This document shows positions 845-49,684 of a stretch of DNA of 64,000 nt, in pieces. A program made the position numbers and the translations under genes. Origin of the DNA: Ureibacillus massiliensis 4400831 = CIP 108448 = CCUG 49529. Lineage in GTDB: Bacteria > Bacillota > Bacilli > Bacillales_A > Planococcaceae. The notes under the pieces were generated by a model. The model saw only the letters and a program-made list of their open reading frames with translations, was not told the DNA's origin and made no database searches. The stretch covers positions 37,406 to 101,405 of the forward strand of contig NZ_JPVQ01000012.1 of assembly GCF_000772965.1 (NCBI RefSeq), read 5' to 3'. How positions within the stretch are numbered: the first letter of the stretch is position 1; every line of letters starts with the position of its first letter.

Positions 845-2101
845 ATGACGGCAAACAACGAAATGCCAAAAGACGAAGGAATCGACCACACACTTGGACT
901 TTTAGAAGAGGGCTACAAGTTTATATTAAACAGACGTAGAAGCCTAAAGTCAGAAATTTTTGAGACGAGAATACTTGGAAAAAAAGCAATTTGCATGAGT
1001 GGTAGAGATGCAACTGAGATATTTTACACGCCAGATAACTTTAAAAGAGAAAATGCAGCTCCTAATCGTGTCGTGCAAAGCTTATTTGGGAAAAATTCAG
1101 TACAAACTTTAGATGGTGAAGAACATAGAAACCGTAAAGAAATGCTAATGTCGATTATGTCAGACGAACGAATTGATCAATTAAAAGAGATTACAAAGCA
1201 ATTTTGGGAAAAAACAATTGATGAATGGGAAACAAAATATGAAATCATTTTATATGATGAAATGAAGGAAATGTTATGCAAAATTGCTTGCGTTTGGGCG
1301 GGGGTTTTAGTCGAAGAAGAAGAACTCAGATGGCTCGCTAAGGAACTAAGTGAAATGTATGAATCTGCAGCAAGCATTGGACCAACTCATTGGAAGGGAC
1401 GAAACGCACGTAACCAAGTTGAAAAATGGATGAAGGAATTAATTCAAAAAATAAGAGACAAAAAGCTCATCCCACCTGAAGGTACAGCCCTTCATAAATT
1501 TTCTTTGCATAAGGATGAAAATGGGGAGTTATTAGATATCGAAACAGTAGCTGTTGAAGTAATTAACATATATCGCCCGATTGTAGCAATTTCTGTGTAT
1601 ATTAACTTTTTGGCGCTAGCAATCATTGAACATCCCGATGAAAAAAAGAAATTAAAAAAAGCAGATGATAAGGATTTTGAAATGTTTGTAAATGAAGTGC
1701 GCCGTTTTTACCCATTTTTCCCATTTGTAGCTGCCCGTGCAAATCGTGATTTTACATGGAAGGATTACAAAATTAAAAAAGATACGTTAGCTTTACTTGA
1801 TTTATATGGAACAAATCATGATGGGGATATTTGGGAGGATCCAGAAGCTTTTAAACCTGGTCGTTTTATTGATTGGAAAGAGGATCGATTCACTTTAATT
1901 CCTCAGGGTGGTGGAGATTATCTTTCGGGACATCGTTGCGCGGGTGAAAAGGTTACTTTAGAAATTATGAAGGTTAGTTTGGATTATCTAGCGAACAAAC
2001 TTGATTTTGAAGTTCCAGAACAGGATTTATCCTTTGAACTAAACGATATCCCTAGCATTCCACACAGCAGAATAATACTTCGAAATATAAGAAGAAAATA
2101 A
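845..2101 (+). CDS. cypC: CYP152-family cytochrome P450 fatty-acid peroxygenase
   Basis: A 418-residue P450 close in length to B. subtilis YbdT/CypC (P450-BSbeta, about 417). That enzyme uses hydrogen peroxide to hydroxylate long-chain fatty acids at the alpha or beta position. Visible features are the heme-thiolate loop GGGDYLSGHRCAGE with Cys at about residue 365, an ExxR helix (NEVRRF, about 284-287), and the Arg-Pro pair in the I-helix (IYRPIVA, about 244-245). In CYP152 enzymes that pair binds the substrate carboxylate and replaces the usual acid-alcohol pair. It is soluble, with no membrane anchor. The ribosome binding site is AAGGAGATG. nrnB follows after only 30 bases. OleT-type decarboxylation is a possible alternative within this family and cannot be settled by eye. 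Confidence 0.9.
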   Translation: MTANNEMPKDEGIDHTLGLLEEGYKFILNRRRSLKSEIFETRILGKKAICMSGRDATEIFYTPDNFKRENAAPNRVVQSLFGKNSVQTLDGEEHRNRKEMLMSIMSDERIDQLKEITKQFWEKTIDEWETKYEIILYDEMKEMLCKIACVWAGVLVEEEELRWLAKELSEMYESAASIGPTHWKGRNARNQVEKWMKELIQKIRDKKLIPPEGTALHKFSLHKDENGELLDIETVAVEVINIYRPIVAISVYINFLALAIIEHPDEKKKLKKADDKDFEMFVNEVRRFYPFFPFVAARANRDFTWKDYKIKKDTLALLDLYGTNHDGDIWEDPEAFKPGRFIDWKEDRFTLIPQGGGDYLSGHRCAGEKVTLEIMKVSLDYLANKLDFEVPEQDLSFELNDIPSIPHSRIILRNIRRK

Positions 2102-9329: not shown

Positions 9330-9356
9330 GGCTTAACCGGCAATGCTGGTTAAGCC
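9330..9356 (+). terminator. hairpin after the DUF4097 gene
   Basis: A 12-bp stem (GGCTTAACCGGC / GCTGGTTAAGCC) has a 3-base loop. The following tract (GTTCTTGTC) has few T residues, so termination may be moderate. Confidence 0.6.
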
Positions 9357-9457
9357 GTTCTTGTCATTCGTTTTAACAAATAGTTAATGATAATATATTA
9401 ATAGAGCAACATCTTTGTGGTTTGATGAAAGAATAAAGTGTAAAGGTGAGTTATTGA

Positions 9458-11827
9458 ATGAGTGATTTAACTGTAATAGACGTGAACAGGTGTTATAAAG
9501 AGGCAGAACAAAAGGCTTCCCAATACTTCTCCTTACTACAACATCAAATTCAACACCAGTCTTATATCCAATCTTTAACAGAAGACATTCGAATATGGAA
9601 AAAGTATCATGTACATACTTCGGTACTTTCTATTTTTTCAAGTAAAAATCAAAATAAACCGAATAGCACCGATTATCAGCAATATTTGAAATGGCTAGAT
9701 TATAAAGGAAAATTAAAGAGTTATTTAGAGCGTAGTGTATCTTATATATTTTTGCGTGATTTAGGAAAAACATTAGATAATTTACAATCACAAAAACGTA
9801 TTCATCATATCGTCGAAGACCTTATCGAACAAATAAAAAATCCAGAAAAAAAGCAAAATGGATTAACGGATCTATTTAATCTTTCAGGTATGTTCCGAAA
9901 AGCTCAAAAGGAGAAAATAGAAACAACAATTATATGGCTGTTTGAAAAGCTCCATGAAGTAGAAAAGAATTTGCCAGAAAAAATGGATGGACTTAATGCG
10001 AAAAGAAAACTGGTTAAAATAATCGCAGGAGTTTTAATGCATGTAAATGAGGAAACATATGAGTCTTTATCTGAAGGAGAACGTGTTAAGAGGCTTGAAG
10101 ATGCTATTCGTTTAGGGTATTCCTATGGATTAACCTACCCTTTCATCGATGATTTATTAGATTCGAACGTATTAAATTCAGATGAGAAGAAGCGATATTC
10201 AAAATTAATTGAAAGAACTCTTACGACTGGTGAAGTTCCTGATTTTGGCGTGTGGGAAGGTACAAATCAACGTCTCATGCAGTACATTCATTCAGAACTA
10301 AAAGAAGCTTTTATGTGCATAAAGCAATATCAAAAGGAGCCATCAAAATTTTTTGAGCAGGCTTATGTATTTTTTAAATCCCAGGAAATCGATCGAGAGA
10401 AAAGTTTATCAAATCCTAGTTATACAAATGAGGAATTATTTATCCCCATTATTTTAAAGTCTTCTTCATCTAGATTGATAGCGAGAACCATTGTAAATGT
10501 TGAAGAAGATGAAGGATTTGATCAACGAACATTCCTATATGGAATTTATAATCAACTTGCAGATGATTTTTCCGATTTGTTTCAAGATCAAAAGGACGGG
10601 GCAGTGACGCCTTATACTTATTATTTGAAATATTATAAGACTCGTAATGATTTATTTAACCCTTTTGAATTGTATTGGGTTGTTATAGAGAATTTAATTC
10701 AAAATGTTTATCACTCAGATTCAAAAACACGAGAAGTTATATTAGACCGAGCGATTAATGGACTAAAGCGATTCAAAGAAAAAGTTGGAAATGAAACCTA
10801 TCATCATGTAATGGATACTTTCAAACTAAGAAATAGACCACTTTATCAGCTGATCGATAAAATGGTAAAAAAGGCAGATGATGTTGATTTTTATGATAAG
10901 CTTCTTCGAGATCGAATGTTGGAAGTATTTAGAAAAGATAAGGAAGAGCAACAACAATTTATAAATACGATTGAAAATGTTCGAGCGTTAATCAATGAAA
11001 ATTTAACAATCGATTATAACAATCCTTTAGATAGCGAGCCTGTAATAGAAGCAGCAAATTATAGCTTAAAGGTCGGTGGGAAAAGATTGCGGCCAATCAT
11101 GACTTGGTTTATGGGAGTCAATGTTTATAATTTAAATGAAGCTGCGATTTTGCCTCTTTTAAAATCATTGGAGTATATGCATACCGCTTCTCTAATCTTT
11201 GATGACCTTCCTACACAGGATAACGCCTCAACACGTCGCGGAAATCCAACCGTACATGAAATCTATAATACGTCTATTGCAGAACTATCAGGTCTTTTCT
11301 TAACGCAGAAGGCTTTTGAAGAGCAGGCTTCAATGAACCATTTCGATGCTAAATCGGTTTTACGATTGATTCAGTATGCAGCACGAATGACTGCGGAAAT
11401 GTGTCAAGGGCAGGCGATGGACTTACAGTCGAAGGGTAAATCACTATCCTTAGAGGAATTAAATACGATTAGTTTTTATAAAACAGGTTTAGGGTTTGAA
11501 GCTTGCTTAGTTATGCCTGCAATTTTAGCTAATGCAAGTGAAGAAGAAAAAGACTCAATTAAAAAATTTGCACGTCACGCTGGTATTGCATTTCAAATAA
11601 AAGATGATTTATTAGATGTTATAGGGGATACAAAATTACTAGGTAAGAAGATTGGAAAGGATGTAGAAAACAATAATTCTACATTTGTATCCATACTAGG
11701 TATGGATGGAGCGAAAAAGGAAATGTGGAATCACTATTGCATTGCGATGGAATCTCTAGAAAACATTCCTCGCAACACAGCCTTCTTGAAGCATTTTTTA
11801 AACTATATTGTAAATAGAGAAAAATAA
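9458..11827 (+). CDS. two-domain isoprenoid synthase: DDxxD domain fused to a prenyl-diphosphate synthase
   Basis: A 789-residue protein, more than twice the usual 290-350 of a prenyl-diphosphate synthase. Residues about 500-789 form a complete trans-type synthase: GGKRLRP (540-546), the first Asp-rich motif DDLPTQD (582-588) with RRG behind it, and the second motif FQIKDDLLD (713-720). Such enzymes condense isopentenyl diphosphate with an allylic diphosphate. The N-terminal 500 residues are all helical by composition and carry their own YPFIDDLLD (228-235) and NQLADDFSDLFQD (365-377). These resemble the two metal-binding motifs of a class I isoprenoid synthase fold, so the first half may be a divergent terpene synthase or a decayed synthase domain. 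It is monocistronic. The chain length made and the function of the first half are unknown. Confidence 0.8.
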   Translation: MSDLTVIDVNRCYKEAEQKASQYFSLLQHQIQHQSYIQSLTEDIRIWKKYHVHTSVLSIFSSKNQNKPNSTDYQQYLKWLDYKGKLKSYLERSVSYIFLRDLGKTLDNLQSQKRIHHIVEDLIEQIKNPEKKQNGLTDLFNLSGMFRKAQKEKIETTIIWLFEKLHEVEKNLPEKMDGLNAKRKLVKIIAGVLMHVNEETYESLSEGERVKRLEDAIRLGYSYGLTYPFIDDLLDSNVLNSDEKKRYSKLIERTLTTGEVPDFGVWEGTNQRLMQYIHSELKEAFMCIKQYQKEPSKFFEQAYVFFKSQEIDREKSLSNPSYTNEELFIPIILKSSSSRLIARTIVNVEEDEGFDQRTFLYGIYNQLADDFSDLFQDQKDGAVTPYTYYLKYYKTRNDLFNPFELYWVVIENLIQNVYHSDSKTREVILDRAINGLKRFKEKVGNETYHHVMDTFKLRNRPLYQLIDKMVKKADDVDFYDKLLRDRMLEVFRKDKEEQQQFINTIENVRALINENLTIDYNNPLDSEPVIEAANYSLKVGGKRLRPIMTWFMGVNVYNLNEAAILPLLKSLEYMHTASLIFDDLPTQDNASTRRGNPTVHEIYNTSIAELSGLFLTQKAFEEQASMNHFDAKSVLRLIQYAARMTAEMCQGQAMDLQSKGKSLSLEELNTISFYKTGLGFEACLVMPAILANASEEEKDSIKKFARHAGIAFQIKDDLLDVIGDTKLLGKKIGKDVENNNSTFVSILGMDGAKKEMWNHYCIAMESLENIPRNTAFLKHFLNYIVNREK

Positions 11828-11829
11828 CA

Positions 11830-11870
11830 AAAGAGTATTTTCCAAGGATTCCCCTTGGAAAGTACTCTTT
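11830..11870. terminator. bidirectional terminator between convergent genes
   Basis: The stem AAAGAGTA..TTCCAAGG / CCTTGGAA..TACTCTTT has T-rich flanks on both strands. It serves the isoprenoid synthase gene and the EamA transporter gene, whose stop codon lies at its edge. Confidence 0.8.
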
Positions 11871-40269: not shown

Positions 40270-41877
40270 TTATTGAGCTTCAGTATAATAAATGTCTGAA
40301 ATTACATAATATCCGTTGTCATCGATGGTTATATAATACTCTACAGTTTCAAAATAAGTTGTATATTCACCACTTACATCGTATAAATCATATTCCTCAT
40401 AAGTAGTGACAATAGCGTATCCATCAAATATGTTAATACCCGTTATTTCTGTATACCAATAATCAAATGTCATATTGGCTTCATAATATGTGCTGATTTG
40501 GTCTTCTAGTTCATAATAAGCATTGCTTTCAGTAGAAATCATATCCTGAATCCAGTAAAAATCACCATCATTAATGGACCATTCATAATACTCAAAGAAT
40601 GATGTAATAAAGCTTAATAATGACTCTTCATCAAAATAATTGCTATAAGTGTTCTGATAATCATTGTAGAAATCGTCATAATTGTTTGTGCCATAATATT
40701 GTTCGTACCACTGCCAAAATTCGGAATAATCCTCACCTAAATCATTTTGTGAGTTAGAGTTTGCATAATCCACATAAACATTAACAGCTATAACTTCCTC
40801 TGGAGTCATCGGATTGTCAATCCATGTATCAAACTGTGCTGAAACAGAATATAAAGGAATGGCGAATCCAAAGGTTTCATTTTCCGTATAAATTAACGAG
40901 TTAATACCAATAACCTTACCAGTGGTCGCATCAAATAATGGTCCACCACTGCTTCCTTGATCGATTTGGGCATCAATTTGATAAAGCTCATCATAAACAA
41001 AATTTAATCCTTCAATATGCATTACTCGATTTGTACCAGTTAGGTATCCAAAAGTAGCCGAGTTTTCAAAACCTTGTGGGCTTCCAATAGCAATTACTTC
41101 AATTCCAATATCTGAAGTATTCATTTCCATTGGAAGTGGTTCAGTTTCCTCATAATTTTCGCAATAAATCAATGCGATATCTGAAGTATCTGAAATACCA
41201 ATTACTCGACCTGGATATTCTTGACCTGCACTATTACGAACAAGAACATCAGTATATCCTGCGACAACATGGGCATTTGTTACGATATAGCCACCGTCTT
41301 TGTAGAGAAAACCAGATCCAAGTGAATCTTCAGTTAATATAGTGAAGACCTTTGGCATGGATTCCTTAATAATTTGGGTTTTTTCCTTTTCCTCAATAAC
41401 TTCTTTTTCTTTTTCCTCTTTAGATCCTTTTTGATTTTTGTCTAAAAGAACATCTTGAATATTTGTGTTATTACCAAGATTACCATTAAGACCAAATAAA
41501 TTACTGTAAAGTAAGTAACCGCCAGCGAATAAACCAACTAATAGTAATACGACAACGATAGAGATAATCCATAATTTCCTATTCTTTTTCCCTTCTTGTG
41601 AATGATTGGTATATGAATTGTTAGTTATTTGGAATTGCGAGTTACTGGGCTGTTGAAAGGGCTCGCTACCAGGTGGCTGGAAGAATTGATTATTAGATGG
41701 TTGTGACTGTTCATTTGTAGGCTGCTCTACAAACGTATTTTTTGGTTGTTCGACCGCTGGATCAAGAGGTTCATTACTTTGTGGAGATTTAGGGACTTCG
41801 TTAAAGAATGAATGTCCACAGTTCGAACAAAATTTAACTCCAGCATCATTTGTTAGTCCACAATTAGGACAAAACAT
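40270..41877 (-). CDS. membrane-anchored trypsin-like serine protease with zinc ribbon and TcaA-like tail
   Basis: A 535-residue protein. An N-terminal zinc ribbon (CPNCG...CSNCG, Cys at 3, 6, 17, 20) is followed by a Gln/Pro/Asn-rich linker, one TM segment (about 101-123), then an HtrA-type trypsin fold outside the cell. The catalytic triad is H203 (TNAHVVAG), D233 (SDIALIY) and S310 (QGSSGGPLF). There is no PDZ domain. The C-terminal 130 residues are Tyr/Asp-rich and resemble the NTF2-like domain of TcaA-type proteins (FFEYYEWSINDGDFYWIQDM). AGGAGGTGG precedes the ATG. A close paralogue lies directly upstream on the same strand. Confidence 0.85.
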   Translation of the reverse strand: MFCPNCGLTNDAGVKFCSNCGHSFFNEVPKSPQSNEPLDPAVEQPKNTFVEQPTNEQSQPSNNQFFQPPGSEPFQQPSNSQFQITNNSYTNHSQEGKKNRKLWIISIVVVLLLVGLFAGGYLLYSNLFGLNGNLGNNTNIQDVLLDKNQKGSKEEKEKEVIEEKEKTQIIKESMPKVFTILTEDSLGSGFLYKDGGYIVTNAHVVAGYTDVLVRNSAGQEYPGRVIGISDTSDIALIYCENYEETEPLPMEMNTSDIGIEVIAIGSPQGFENSATFGYLTGTNRVMHIEGLNFVYDELYQIDAQIDQGSSGGPLFDATTGKVIGINSLIYTENETFGFAIPLYSVSAQFDTWIDNPMTPEEVIAVNVYVDYANSNSQNDLGEDYSEFWQWYEQYYGTNNYDDFYNDYQNTYSNYFDEESLLSFITSFFEYYEWSINDGDFYWIQDMISTESNAYYELEDQISTYYEANMTFDYWYTEITGINIFDGYAIVTTYEEYDLYDVSGEYTTYFETVEYYITIDDNGYYVISDIYYTEAQ

Positions 41878-42233: not shown

Positions 42234-43382
42234 CTAATATTGATAGTAATAAATATCTGAAATTAGGTAATTCCCATATTCATCTAATATAATTGTATAT
42301 TCTACATCATACTGATAATATACATAATCACCATTTTCATCGTAGAAATATTCTTCTTCATAAGTAGTTACTAAGGCATAATCATCGTAAATATCAATGC
42401 TTGAAATTTCATATAATCCATCATCGAAAATTTCACCTGTACTGCCTTCTACGATGTTTTGTAAATCATTATAAATGTAGCTATCAGGGGATACCATATC
42501 TTCTATCCAATAAAAATCTGAATCTTCCATTGCCCATTTATAATATTCAAAGTAAGATTCCATAAAGTAGGTTAATGATGATTCATCGAATAGATATCCA
42601 TTGTTATTCCAATAGTTGTCATAATAATTATCTTCGTAATAATAGTCTTCTGTATAAGAATCGTCTTCGTAATAATAGTCATCAGTATAAGGATCTTCGT
42701 TGGAGTAATCTCCAAAATACTGATCGTAATAATCCCAAAAGCCCGAATAGTCTTCCGTAGTATAATCATCATAACTTGAGTTGTAGGCATAATCATCATA
42801 CACATTGACTGCTATGACATCATTTGGACTCATAGGGTTACTGATCCAATTATCAAATTGTTCTGCAACCGTATGTAAAGGAATCGAGAATCCGAATGTT
42901 TCATTGTTTGTATAAATTAATGAGTTAATACCGATAACTTTTCCAGAGGATGCATCAAATAAAGGTCCACCACTACTACCTTGGTCGATTTGAGCATCGA
43001 TTTGATAAAGATGATCATACACAAAATTATAACCTTCGATCGCCATTTCACGGTCACTACCAGTCAAATAACCAAATGTAGCTGTGTTTTCAAAACCTTG
43101 AGGGCTACCGATAGCAATAACTTCAATGCCTATTTCAGAAGTAGACAATTCTAATGGTAATGGTTCAGTGTCTTTATAAGCCTCTGAATATATTAAAGCG
43201 ATATCTGAGTAATCTGATAAACCAATCACTTTGCCAATCGACTCTTGTCCAGAGCTATTTCGAACGATTACATCTGAATATCCCGCAACCACGTGGGCGT
43301 TTGTTACGATATATCCACCTTTTTTATATAGGAAACCAGAACCCATTCCCTCTTCTGTAAGAATGGTAAATACTTTTGGCAT
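42234..43382 (-). CDS. trypsin-like serine protease fragment (downstream part of a frameshifted gene)
   Basis: The protease and tail half of the second zinc-ribbon protease. From the ATG at 43382 it encodes about 382 residues with the triad blocks TNAHVVAG, SDIALIY and QGSSGGPLF all intact. A Tyr/Asp/Glu-rich repeat (DDYYYED.., DYYYED..) and the TcaA-like NTF2 domain ending in ISDIYYYQY follow. It is out of frame with the upstream zinc-ribbon/TM half because of a 4-bp duplication. The ATG lies 7 bases past the upstream stop codon with AAGGAG between, so reinitiation could yield a protease with no membrane anchor. Otherwise the locus is a pseudogene. Confidence 0.75.
   Translation of the reverse strand: MPKVFTILTEEGMGSGFLYKKGGYIVTNAHVVAGYSDVIVRNSSGQESIGKVIGLSDYSDIALIYSEAYKDTEPLPLELSTSEIGIEVIAIGSPQGFENTATFGYLTGSDREMAIEGYNFVYDHLYQIDAQIDQGSSGGPLFDASSGKVIGINSLIYTNNETFGFSIPLHTVAEQFDNWISNPMSPNDVIAVNVYDDYAYNSSYDDYTTEDYSGFWDYYDQYFGDYSNEDPYTDDYYYEDDSYTEDYYYEDNYYDNYWNNNGYLFDESSLTYFMESYFEYYKWAMEDSDFYWIEDMVSPDSYIYNDLQNIVEGSTGEIFDDGLYEISSIDIYDDYALVTTYEEEYFYDENGDYVYYQYDVEYTIILDEYGNYLISDIYYYQY
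42631..42700. repeat. 33/30-bp tandem repeat in the protease tail
   Basis: TCTTCGTAATAATAGTC recurs at 42631 and 42664, and the first seven bases recur at 42694, giving repeat units of 33 and 30 bp. They encode the Tyr/Asp-rich stretch and are missing from the downstream paralogue. Confidence 0.7.
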
Positions 43383-43389
43383 TGACTCC

Positions 43390-43983
43390 TTAATAATTAA
43401 TTTGAGTCTTCTCTTTTTCTTCACCCTGCACGGATTGGTTTTCATCATCTTCATTAGTTTCTTTTTCGGTATCAACAGGTGAAGCAATTTGTTCAGTTTT
43501 TGGATCTCTATCAAAAGTAGTGGACTTTTGATGATTTAAAACAATAAAGCTAATAGCAAGGATAAGTACAATTAATACAGATGCACCAGAAATAATCCAA
43601 ACCTTCGCATTACTATTTTTCTTAATTGGTTGATAACGTTGTGCCCCTTGTTGTTGAAGTGGGGGAGTAATAGGATTTTGAAAATGATTAGGTTGCTGAG
43701 AACCAAACTGTTGTTCATTGACTTCTGATTGGTTATTTGGTTGTTGATCGCTTTTATAAGGATTTTTTTCTATATCATCATAGTCAAAACCTTTTGGCAT
43801 TTCATATCGTTGAATTTTATTCTCTTCATTAAATGAATGTACATCCTGCTCTTGGTTTGTAGAAAAAGATGGATCATTATGAGGAGTTTGGGGTTGTATA
43901 ATCTGATTCATTGGTTGTCCGCAATTAGAACAGAACTTCGCTTCTTTTTCATTATTTTCCCCACATTTTGTGCAAAACACCAT
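43390..43983 (-). CDS. zinc-ribbon/TM fragment (upstream part of a frameshifted protease gene)
   Basis: A 197-residue product with an N-terminal zinc ribbon (CTKCG...CSNCG), a Gln/Asn/Pro-rich linker and one TM segment (VWIISGASVLIVLILAISFIV). Its acidic tail ends EEKEKTQINY and then stops. In the intact paralogue the same tail continues EEKEKTQIIKESMPKVF into the protease domain. The stop is caused by an extra AATT. The ATG at 43983 has GGGAGG 5 bases upstream. On its own this product is a membrane-anchored zinc ribbon with no protease domain. Confidence 0.75.
   Translation of the reverse strand: MVFCTKCGENNEKEAKFCSNCGQPMNQIIQPQTPHNDPSFSTNQEQDVHSFNEENKIQRYEMPKGFDYDDIEKNPYKSDQQPNNQSEVNEQQFGSQQPNHFQNPITPPLQQQGAQRYQPIKKNSNAKVWIISGASVLIVLILAISFIVLNHQKSTTFDRDPKTEQIASPVDTEKETNEDDENQSVQGEEKEKTQINY
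43395..43402. repeat. 4-bp tandem duplication causing a frameshift
   Basis: AATTAATT stands where the paralogous gene has a single AATT. Removing one copy restores one continuous reading frame of about 578 codons across the two fragments. Confidence 0.75.
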
Positions 43984-44272
43984 TTCCACCTCCCTAAAAA
44001 TAACAATTAATTCAATTAATTATTAACATTTTACTATTAGGAGTGTATGGTTGTCATTGGTATTCTTATAGAAAGTTATATTAACTATGGGGAAAATATG
44101 TAAATCAAATTAATAATTATAATAGCGAATATAGATTGCAACAAAAATAAAAAATTTTGCATAACAATTTTTAGAAAAAACATGAACATGTGGTTTTGAA
44201 AAAATGAAAGTTAGAAAAGTGCAGTGATTAAAGAAGTCCATTTTTTATACACAAAATAAAAATAAATATTAG

Positions 44273-44301: not shown

Positions 44302-44333
44302 AAACCGTACCAAAAAAAATGGAGGTGCTTTTG

Positions 44334-44831
44334 ATGAATAACAACAACAATAATAATCGCACAGTAGCAGGTACAGATATTGAAGAGGTAAAACGTCAAA
44401 ATGCTGGGTCTAATGCTGGGGCAAATAGCTTCTCAGGAGGAACAACAGCTTCAGGTACAGATATTCAAAAAGTACGTGAGGAAATAGCTCAAGAAGCAGG
44501 TCCATTTGGTAAGCCAGCTGCAAATCAACCTTCGTTTGGTGCACAAGGACAAACAGCTTCAGGTACCAATATTCAAAAAGTACGTGAGGAAATAGCTCAA
44601 GAAGCAGGTCCATTTAGCAAACCAGCTGCAAGTTCACCTTCGTTTGGTGCACAAGGACAAACAGCTTCGGGTACCAATATTCAAAAAGTGCGCGAAGAAA
44701 TAGCCCAAGAAGCAGGTCCATTCGGTAAACCAGCTGCAAAACAATCATTCGGTAACCAAACAGTAGCTGGTACTGATATCGAAGAAGTAAAACGCCAAAA
44801 CGCACAATCGAATCAAAATCAAAATCAATAA
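44334..44831 (+). CDS. sspE: gamma-type small acid-soluble spore protein
   Basis: A 165-residue gamma-type SASP, larger than the 84-residue B. subtilis SspE. It starts with a run of Asn, then RTVAGTDIEEVKRQNA. Three 36-residue repeats (TASGT(D/N)IQKVREEIAQEAG in each) follow, and a last TVAGTDIEEVKRQNAQ closes it. The protein is Gln/Gly/Ala-rich and lacks Cys and Trp. Gamma SASPs are amino-acid stores degraded during germination and are made in the forespore. The ATG at 44334 is chosen because GGAGGTG lies 6 bases upstream. An in-frame ATG at 44319 lies before that site. Confidence 0.88.
   Translation: MNNNNNNNRTVAGTDIEEVKRQNAGSNAGANSFSGGTTASGTDIQKVREEIAQEAGPFGKPAANQPSFGAQGQTASGTNIQKVREEIAQEAGPFSKPAASSPSFGAQGQTASGTNIQKVREEIAQEAGPFGKPAAKQSFGNQTVAGTDIEEVKRQNAQSNQNQNQ
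44445..44752 (+). repeat. 108-bp tandem repeats within the SASP gene
   Basis: Three units begin with ACAGCTTC at 44445, 44553 and 44661, exactly 108 bp (36 codons) apart and very similar in DNA sequence. The third is truncated by about 20 bases. Confidence 0.85.
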
Positions 44832-48220: not shown

Positions 48221-49684
48221 TTATTCTTTTTCACTCTTTTCGCTAATAATCTTGAGAATTCTCTTGAGATTGACTGCAAATATCGCTGTTGCTGCTTGAA
48301 TTTGCATGCCAAATAGACCCGCGGATGTTGCTACATCATGCCCGTGTCTATTTTTTAATTCACTATTTTTCGCTTCTATTTTATAGCGAGTAGCTGCTAT
48401 TTTTTTAAATTCCTCCGAATTTTGAAATGCTTCTTGATTCTTATGTTCCGTTGATTTAATTGTCACATGATAAGTTTTTGTTTTTGCCCCTTCTTTATAA
48501 CATCCATCACGCAACGGACATATCTTACACTTATTTATATCAAACAAATATTTCATTCTTGGGTTTTTATCTGTTCTATTTTCAAATTTCTTTTTGATTG
48601 CCATATGTCCAGCAGGACATATATACATGCCTGCATCTTTATTAAACTCGAATTCATCCTCTTTTTTTCTAGTACCTCTTGAAGTAACGGGGTGTAATTT
48701 AGAAACTAACACTATATTTCTATTTTTTGTATATTTAATATTATCTTTTTCCGAGTACGCTGTATCACCAATTACTGTATCAATTTCTACTCCTGCTTGT
48801 TCGCTCTTTCTGATTAAGTCCTGAAGATACTTTCCATCACTTTTTTCTCCTGTTGTAATTACTGCAGCTGTGATAATTCGTTCATCACACATTGCAATAT
48901 GCGATTTATAGCCAAAAAATGATGAGTCCTCTGTTTTATGTCCAACACGTGCATCTAAATCCGTTGAATAGCTAAGATGTTCTGTAAAATCTGTAACTAC
49001 TTCTTTTAACATATTTAATTTTTCAGTCACTGATGGAATTACAGTAAATTTTGACTCTTTTTCAATTACACTAATGAGCTGATGACAATAATCTAATTCA
49101 TCTTTTACTTCGTTAGAAGTAGTTTTTGGTGGGAATTTTCCTTTTATCGATTCATCGATTTGATAGGCTGCTTTACGTAGATTTTTTGATTTTTCTTGTA
49201 AAAATTCTTTTGGTGATTTGTCATTATAACGCGCTTTGGTATGTGTAGCATCCACAATAATGGTTTTACTCTTAATGATTTCTTTTTCCAAGGCAATCTC
49301 AACTGTTTTTCCAATTAGCAAATCTAATAAGCCCTCATCAGGGAGACGTAGCTTGCGGAACTTTGTTAAAGAGCTTGGATTAATTACTGAATCTTCCGGC
49401 GCCATGTTAAGGAAATATTTAAATGACATATCGTATTTAGAACGTTCAACTACATCGACATCTGACAAATCAAAAATTGACTTAAGTAATAAATATTTAA
49501 ACATACGAATTGGAGGAACTGCGTTCCGTCCGTTATCAAGACAATATTTCATTTTTAATTCTTCGAGTATAAACGTAAAATCTACGAGCTCATTAATTTG
49601 ACGAAGTATATTATCTTTTGGCACAACTATATCGTATATTGCCAAAAATGGGCTAAGATTGAGAGATTCTTGGTTCGAAATCAT
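48221..49684 (-). CDS. IS1182-family DDE transposase
   Basis: A 487-residue transposase with no frameshift or internal stop. The DDE residues are likely the Asp of TIIVDATHTKARYN (D145), the Asp of VIGDTAYSEKDN (about 309) and the Glu of RYKIEAKNSELKNRHG (about 450). A zinc-finger-like region (MYICPAGH..., KCKICPLRDGCYKEG) lies between the last two, as usual in the family. Being intact and flanked by matching inverted repeats, it is probably active or only recently inserted. Confidence 0.92.
   Translation of the reverse strand: MISNQESLNLSPFLAIYDIVVPKDNILRQINELVDFTFILEELKMKYCLDNGRNAVPPIRMFKYLLLKSIFDLSDVDVVERSKYDMSFKYFLNMAPEDSVINPSSLTKFRKLRLPDEGLLDLLIGKTVEIALEKEIIKSKTIIVDATHTKARYNDKSPKEFLQEKSKNLRKAAYQIDESIKGKFPPKTTSNEVKDELDYCHQLISVIEKESKFTVIPSVTEKLNMLKEVVTDFTEHLSYSTDLDARVGHKTEDSSFFGYKSHIAMCDERIITAAVITTGEKSDGKYLQDLIRKSEQAGVEIDTVIGDTAYSEKDNIKYTKNRNIVLVSKLHPVTSRGTRKKEDEFEFNKDAGMYICPAGHMAIKKKFENRTDKNPRMKYLFDINKCKICPLRDGCYKEGAKTKTYHVTIKSTEHKNQEAFQNSEEFKKIAATRYKIEAKNSELKNRHGHDVATSAGLFGMQIQAATAIFAVNLKRILKIISEKSEKE

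Follow-up and report, generated by a model that had tools for sequence, protein, structure and literature searches.

What is the role of a bacterial protein made of two isoprenoid-synthase-like halves in one chain? The question is raised by a gene in a 64,000-nucleotide stretch (the window) of the genome of Ureibacillus massiliensis (contig NZ_JPVQ01000012.1, positions 37,406 to 101,405). An earlier note on this DNA proposed that its 789-residue product could be a bifunctional terpene synthase or a duplicated synthase with one altered half. We find the first proposal likely, at a probability of roughly 60%: the protein would be an assembly-line terpene synthase, in which the rear half builds geranylgeranyl diphosphate (GGPP) or a somewhat longer chain and the front half converts it, most likely by cyclisation. 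The open reading frame (ORF) is single and uninterrupted, running on the forward strand from the ATG at 9458 to a stop codon ending at 11827, exactly as the earlier note had placed it. No other ORF of at least 100 amino acids (aa) overlaps 9458-11827, and the one reverse frame translated, frame 1 of the reverse complement, has many stops across the gene.

The two halves and their motifs

The rear half, residues 500-789, is by sequence a trans-prenyl diphosphate synthase. PF00348 matches residues 530-755 with an E-value of 1.7e-55 (188.4 bits against a gathering score of 27), and both Asp-rich motifs are present, as the earlier note had read them, along with KRLR, RRG and KT. Conservation was assessed in 244 proteins, this one included, namely those of 700-860 aa among 354 proteins drawn from best-120 lists, which favour close and intact genes. 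The rear-half motif residues are kept in 243-244 of the 244, with the exception of R543 (229/244). The K542-R-L-R545 segment we take to be the isopentenyl diphosphate (IPP) site motif. The rear half scores under the NCBIfam cut-offs for all 16 specific models listed. The Ureibacillus genome has three further PF00348 genes, one of which is ordinary and farnesyl diphosphate (FPP) synthase-like, reading HTYSLIHDD up to and into its first motif. At position 577 the fusion family has Ala (240/244) or Ser (4/244), where this FPP synthase has Tyr, so that the product longer than FPP suggested in the earlier note is plausible. Of the two small residues on which that suggestion was based, A577 is informative and S578 is not, as Ser is also found there in the FPP synthase. 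Another polyprenyl-synthetase gene of the genome (1360-2256 of stretch L004, ~300 aa, PF00348 69.8 bits) has a product that, judged by eye, resembles ComQ; if so, the genome may have a system that modifies a quorum-sensing pheromone.

Sequence searches of Pfam, NCBIfam and the PDB assign the front half to no named family, with zero PDB matches at E up to 10. Its predicted model, with a predicted local distance difference test score (pLDDT) of 90.8, has the class I terpenoid (alpha) fold. A class I isoprenoid or terpenoid fold fills 99 of the 100 fold-comparison rows shown (49 of 50 in Foldseek, the others in VIA), at weak E-values. The note's view of two isoprenoid-synthase-like halves is thereby borne out, by PF00348 for the rear and by the predicted fold for the front, and the check that it had proposed for residues 1-450 returned a class I isoprenoid synthase and not an unrelated fold. 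In this model, the D75 correspondence and the order of the helices are consistent with both front-half metal motifs facing one cavity.

These two motifs, D231-D232-x-x-D235 and D369-D370-x-x-D373, are spaced 138 residues apart, close to the 135 or so noted earlier. Because they are identical in all 244 full-length proteins, they cannot be put down to chance. The same invariance is found for R183, K184, K187, Q309, K334, R339, G362, N365, Q366 and D377. Five elements occur in the same order in both halves (front/rear positions in brackets): a basic cluster (183, 184, 187/542, 545), the first Asp motif (231, 232, 235/582, 583, 588), Q-x-x-D (309-312/652-655), K-S or K-T (334-335/675-676) and G...Q-x-x-D-D-x-x-D (362-373/709-720). 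Judging from helix order in the model, the helix carrying R183, K184 and K187 would be the counterpart of the rear K542/R545 helix. The helix of residues 206-235, which ends in the first motif, is broken at 225 in the model of the front half alone.

The RRG motif binds diphosphate during chain extension in the prenyl synthase family. It follows the first Asp motif in all 244 rear halves and, within 30 residues, in none of the 244 front halves. A front half with intact metal motifs and no RRG is as expected for ionisation of an allylic diphosphate without addition of IPP. The second front-half motif is acidic (N365-x3-D369-D370-x2-D373-x3-D377), DDxxD-like rather than NSE/DTE; the title of one solved structure in the VIA rows, 8kih, names an exception to the NSE/DTE second-motif rule. 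As a separate observation, the first Asp motif of the front half, GYSYGLTYPFIDDLLD, resembles the apparent second, not the first, motif GYYVGMSYQIIDDILD of heptaprenyl diphosphate synthase (weak profile match, E 0.44). Convergence could account for this likeness, or it may point to an unusual origin.

Taken as an assembly line, the protein would operate as follows. The rear half would join IPP to an allylic starter, giving a chain of likely 20 carbons. Hand-over to a front half, whether in that subunit or in an adjacent fused one, would probably follow. In the front half, Mg2+ coordinated by D231/D232/D235 and D369/D370/D373 would bind the diphosphate group and set off its departure, leaving a carbocation that would be quenched, most likely after ring closure.

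The front half might instead be a second prenyl-joining enzyme, for chain extension or for irregular head-to-head or head-to-middle condensation, with its DDxxD pair holding an allylic diphosphate and R183/K184/K187 holding another diphosphate. The main argument for this is the retained and invariant basic cluster. The five prenyl-synthase-like motifs in order, including Q-x-x-D and K-S/T, also favour it, as do a PF00348 match at the second motif (residues 354-379; 12.6-12.8 bits, under the gathering score), matches to the same model in three of seven front halves, with E-values of up to 10 and a best value of 8.7e-5, and the six prenyl synthases that take up rows in the VIA list of 50. We nevertheless find it unlikely, given that RRG is lacking in every front half, that the best cyclase stands ~2 Z units above the best prenyl synthase in the VIA rows, and that the Pfam search gave no SQS_PSY match within the front half. 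A front half that prenylates a non-isoprenoid acceptor, such as an aromatic compound or another small molecule, appears quite unlikely: the carbazole prenyltransferase CqsB4 (row 50) and the prenyltransferase Ord1 (rows 17 and 46) do occur in the Foldseek list, but the gene is a lone unit, and no conserved acceptor-making neighbour lies within 6 kilobases (kb), the best neighbour cluster being found at 12 of 79 loci.

An improbable alternative is that the front half has no catalysis of its own and tunes either the stability of the rear half or the length of the chain made there, much as small subunits of heteromeric prenyl synthases do. Non-catalytic partners usually lose the metal-motif Asp residues, which here are invariant together with K334, N365 and Q366, although strict fusion and the presence of heteromeric enzymes (mint geranyl diphosphate synthase) among the solved-structure relatives of the rear half speak in its favour. 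We think it very improbable that the front half belongs, as a diverged relative, with the class IB large-terpene synthases of Bacillales (YtpB, DUF2600). Two solved class IB enzymes, 6loo and 5yo8 (rows 10 and 18), have the top query-normalised TM-scores of the 50 Foldseek rows shown (0.36 and 0.34), while class IB enzymes are outside the best 50 VIA rows, a list too short to exclude a class IB fold. The layout of the first motif is similar by eye, and a profile built from five sequences aligned locally with YtpB/DUF2600 over 51 columns at this motif (probability 1.0%, E 0.053). However, the alignment is absent with a deeper profile, for which a motif text search gave an ORF in 33 of 35 loci and 30 ORFs of 330-440 aa were aligned; this profile yields no significant profile-profile match, and no PF10776 match up to E 10 falls in the front half. 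Kinship with YtpB/DUF2600 was therefore rejected. Nor is the fusion an exclusive substitute for YtpB, since three of the five order-level genomes with a DUF2600 match above the cut-off have the fusion and two do not. The Ureibacillus genome itself has no match to the YtpB family (PF10776 profile search) or to the squalene-hopene cyclase N-domain (profile search), and has one squalene/phytoene-synthase match, away from the fusion gene.

History and distribution of the fusion

The halves are bridged by one continuous predicted helix, with block pLDDT of 82-95 across residues 471-520. When they were compared profile to profile, only 22 columns aligned, around the second motif (probability 0.8%, E 0.074). 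A recent internal duplication, the duplicated synthase of the earlier note, was rejected on this result as the main account. The halves evolve at an equal rate, as evidenced by mean pairwise identities of 64.2% and 64.0% with a correlation of 0.96 (5000 sampled pairs). Trees of 67 sequences show the same split, 19 versus 48, for both halves, with support of 0.998 in each. Of the 18 front-half splits with support of at least 0.95, 15 recur in the rear-half tree; 22 of all 64 splits are common. The group of 19 includes five proteins with a named source (Salinibius, Marinospirillum, Aliikangiella, Pleionea and Glaciecola), and these five genera are all Gammaproteobacteria by taxonomy. One old fusion followed by joint descent would best explain both the equal rates and the matching trees. 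On a wider account, which strikes us as being as easily right as wrong, this is an ancient family of Bacillota and Gammaproteobacteria in which the fungal layout arose on its own a second time, the front cyclase being of a new sequence family and rigidly joined by a shared helix, and a new diterpene or larger terpene being made directly from C5 units.

In a genome collection based on GTDB, 446 stretches encode a relative of the front half, although one locus may count repeatedly. The best 80 of these were examined; they come from Bacillus-like genera, Paenibacillus, Sporosarcina, Psychrobacillus, Ureibacillus and others, nearly all Bacillales, with two labelled Clostridia/Clostridium. Both halves lie in one frame at all 80 loci, 79 by script (783-834 aa) and one by hand, the latter (L033, 789 aa) having been missed by the script because its motif reads GLSYP. 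Among 200 genomes of the window's order, its own included, 49 have a match, of which 48 are near-complete (frames of 786-836 aa) and one, in G182, is a 42-column fragment. The distribution is patchy, since four of the 17 genera of this set have the fusion. Named relatives among the matches listed are all bacterial.

The earlier note had asked for homologues of the front half with and without the second domain. Every near-complete copy examined is fused, yet a few ORFs do span the front half only. A search limited to proteins of at most 1.75 x 427 aa gave 143 matches, and the best 120 comprise pieces marked 'partial', short pieces, shortened fusions still with PF00348, and a few front-only ORFs, including P0138 (429 aa, Aquibacillus albus) and P0132 (446 aa); we read these as probable fragments or split genes, though a true standalone form could be among them.

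Gene surroundings point to a lone unit. The neighbour comparison covered five ORFs on each side within 6 kb (ORFs of at least 80 aa, picked by length); the positions of the best cluster were scattered, and a gene-cluster partner was rejected on its 12 of 79 loci. The gene is rarely in an operon, with a same-strand ORF within 60 bp upstream at 0 of 77 loci and downstream at 3 of 78. Nothing convincing for a sporulation or other special promoter was found in 79 upstream regions, with starts picked by a simple rule: sigma-H-like sites numbered 3 against 0.7 expected and sigma-K-like sites 2 against 1.1, too few to use, and sigma-A-like sites 1 against 4.5. In the window, a consensus scan places terminator-like hairpins on both sides of the gene (Table 1).

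Table 1. Features of the fusion gene and its flanks, in window coordinates
Feature	Position	Strand	Basis
Terminator-like hairpin between upstream gene and fusion gene	9330..9356	+	Consensus scan only
Ribosome-binding-site-like AAAGGTGAG 5' of ATG	9442..9450	+	Read from sequence
Whole fused gene	9458..11827	+	ORF and translation, 789 aa
N-terminal helical extension, residues 1-150; Y96, R100, D101 identical in 244/244	9458..9907	+	Predicted model and comparison
Catalytic-fold domain of the front half (residues ~151-480), modelled as a class I isoprenoid synthase	9908..10897	+	Predicted model
Basic cluster R183, K184, K187, invariant	10004..10018	+	Model and 244-protein comparison
Front-half first Asp-rich motif D231-D232-L-L-D235, end of helix 206-235	10148..10162	+	Model and comparison
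Q309-x-x-D312, parallels rear Q652-x-x-D655	10382..10393	+	Q 244/244, D 237/244
K334-S335-x-x-x-R339, parallels rear K675-T676	10457..10474	+	S335 243/244
Front-half second motif N365-Q366-x-x-D369-D370-x-x-D373-x-x-x-D377	10550..10588	+	Model, comparison; sub-threshold PF00348 match 354-379
Continuous predicted helix bridging the halves, residues 479-515	10892..11002	+	Predicted model
Rear half, residues 500-789, trans-prenyl diphosphate synthase	10955..11824	+	Pfam, NCBIfam and PDB comparisons
K542-R-L-R545, presumed IPP-site motif	11081..11092	+	244-protein comparison
A577, fifth residue before first Asp motif; the FPP synthase of this genome has Tyr	11186..11188	+	Alignment
Rear-half first Asp-rich motif D582-D583-x4-D588	11201..11221	+	244-protein comparison
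R593-R594-G595 3' of first motif; no front-half counterpart (0/244)	11234..11242	+	Motif count
Rear-half second motif Q713-x-x-D716-D717-x-x-D720	11594..11617	+	244-protein comparison
Terminator-like hairpin 3' of gene	11830..11870	+	Consensus scan only

Elsewhere in the window, a CYP152 fatty-acid peroxygenase gene, CypC (845-2101, forward strand; NCBIfam equivalog above cut-off), lies ~7 kb upstream of the fusion, outside the 6 kb flanks compared between loci. Of two overlapping reverse-strand frames, 42234-43514 and 43390-43989, one encodes a trypsin-like peptidase with a TcaA-type domain and the other a zinc ribbon; the neighbour gene 40270-41877 has the same parts in a single frame, and the pair looks like one paralogue in two frames. 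A gamma-type small acid-soluble spore protein with internal repeats (44319-44831, forward; Pfam and NCBIfam above cut-off) and an IS1182-family transposase (48221-49684, reverse; NCBIfam equivalog above cut-off) are also present.

Comparison with known systems

The earlier note described the combination of cyclase and prenyltransferase as unusual in bacteria. This holds for the literature found but not for the gene itself, which is common in the collection (446 stretches, in which loci may repeat). In 2021 the layout was called unique to fungi, in a passage of PMC8307374, and titles and abstract openings in the open-licence part of PubMed Central, a scope that takes in neither subscription papers nor preprints, yielded no bacterial fusion of this layout. 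The terms 'fused' and 'bifunctional' have zero occurrences in the excerpted text of PMC12654598, on polyprenyl synthases of ten spore-forming strains. In that of PMC7192455, on mining of bacterial terpene synthases including Firmicutes, 'fused' and 'polyprenyl' have none, and 'bifunctional' has two, both in references on geosmin synthase. Relatives carry plain names in public databases, such as 'polyprenyl synthetase family protein'. If the assembly-line reading is true, a chain builder fused to a terpene-forming domain evolved in bacteria too, likely independently, and an unstudied class of terpenes could become accessible by putting one gene into E. coli.

The rear half is a full member of the trans-prenyl diphosphate synthases (PF00348; FPP and GGPP synthases), but differs from the ordinary ones in being fused in every near-complete copy examined and in having Ala where the genome's own FPP synthase has Tyr. 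Class IB enzymes (YtpB/tetraprenyl-beta-curcumene synthase, PF10776) share with the front half the Bacillales hosts and the class I fold, predicted for the front half, with a weak fold match; they differ in that no sequence or profile kinship was detected and in being separate frames of 366-377 aa in the five order-level genomes above the cut-off. Bacterial class I cyclases such as the Bradyrhizobium ent-kaurene synthase are single-domain and 11% identical over the aligned residues, and the second motif here is DDxxD-like.

The closest likeness is to the fungal prenyltransferase-terpene synthases (PTTSs), for instance the fusicoccadiene synthase PaFS, which likewise have a class I synthase domain in front (here by predicted fold) and a prenyltransferase behind in one chain. 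Going by passages of PMC8307374 and PMC8190136, PTTSs have ~700 aa against 789 here, and both would use C5 units directly. The hosts differ, fungi in one case and bacteria in the other, and the front half, with its DDxxD-like second motif, is outside the named families of Pfam, NCBIfam and the PDB. The likeness seen is one of layout. The linker of PaFS is described as flexible and of ~70 residues (a passage of PMC8190136), in contrast to the continuous helix predicted here for residues 479-515; a rigid helix set against flexible fungal linkers would make a test case for substrate hand-over. The same source states that most GGPP stays on the enzyme in PaFS. By analogy, and leaving membership of the PTTS family aside, the bacterial fusion would work like a PTTS if its front half is active, sharing with these enzymes their layout and probably their logic.
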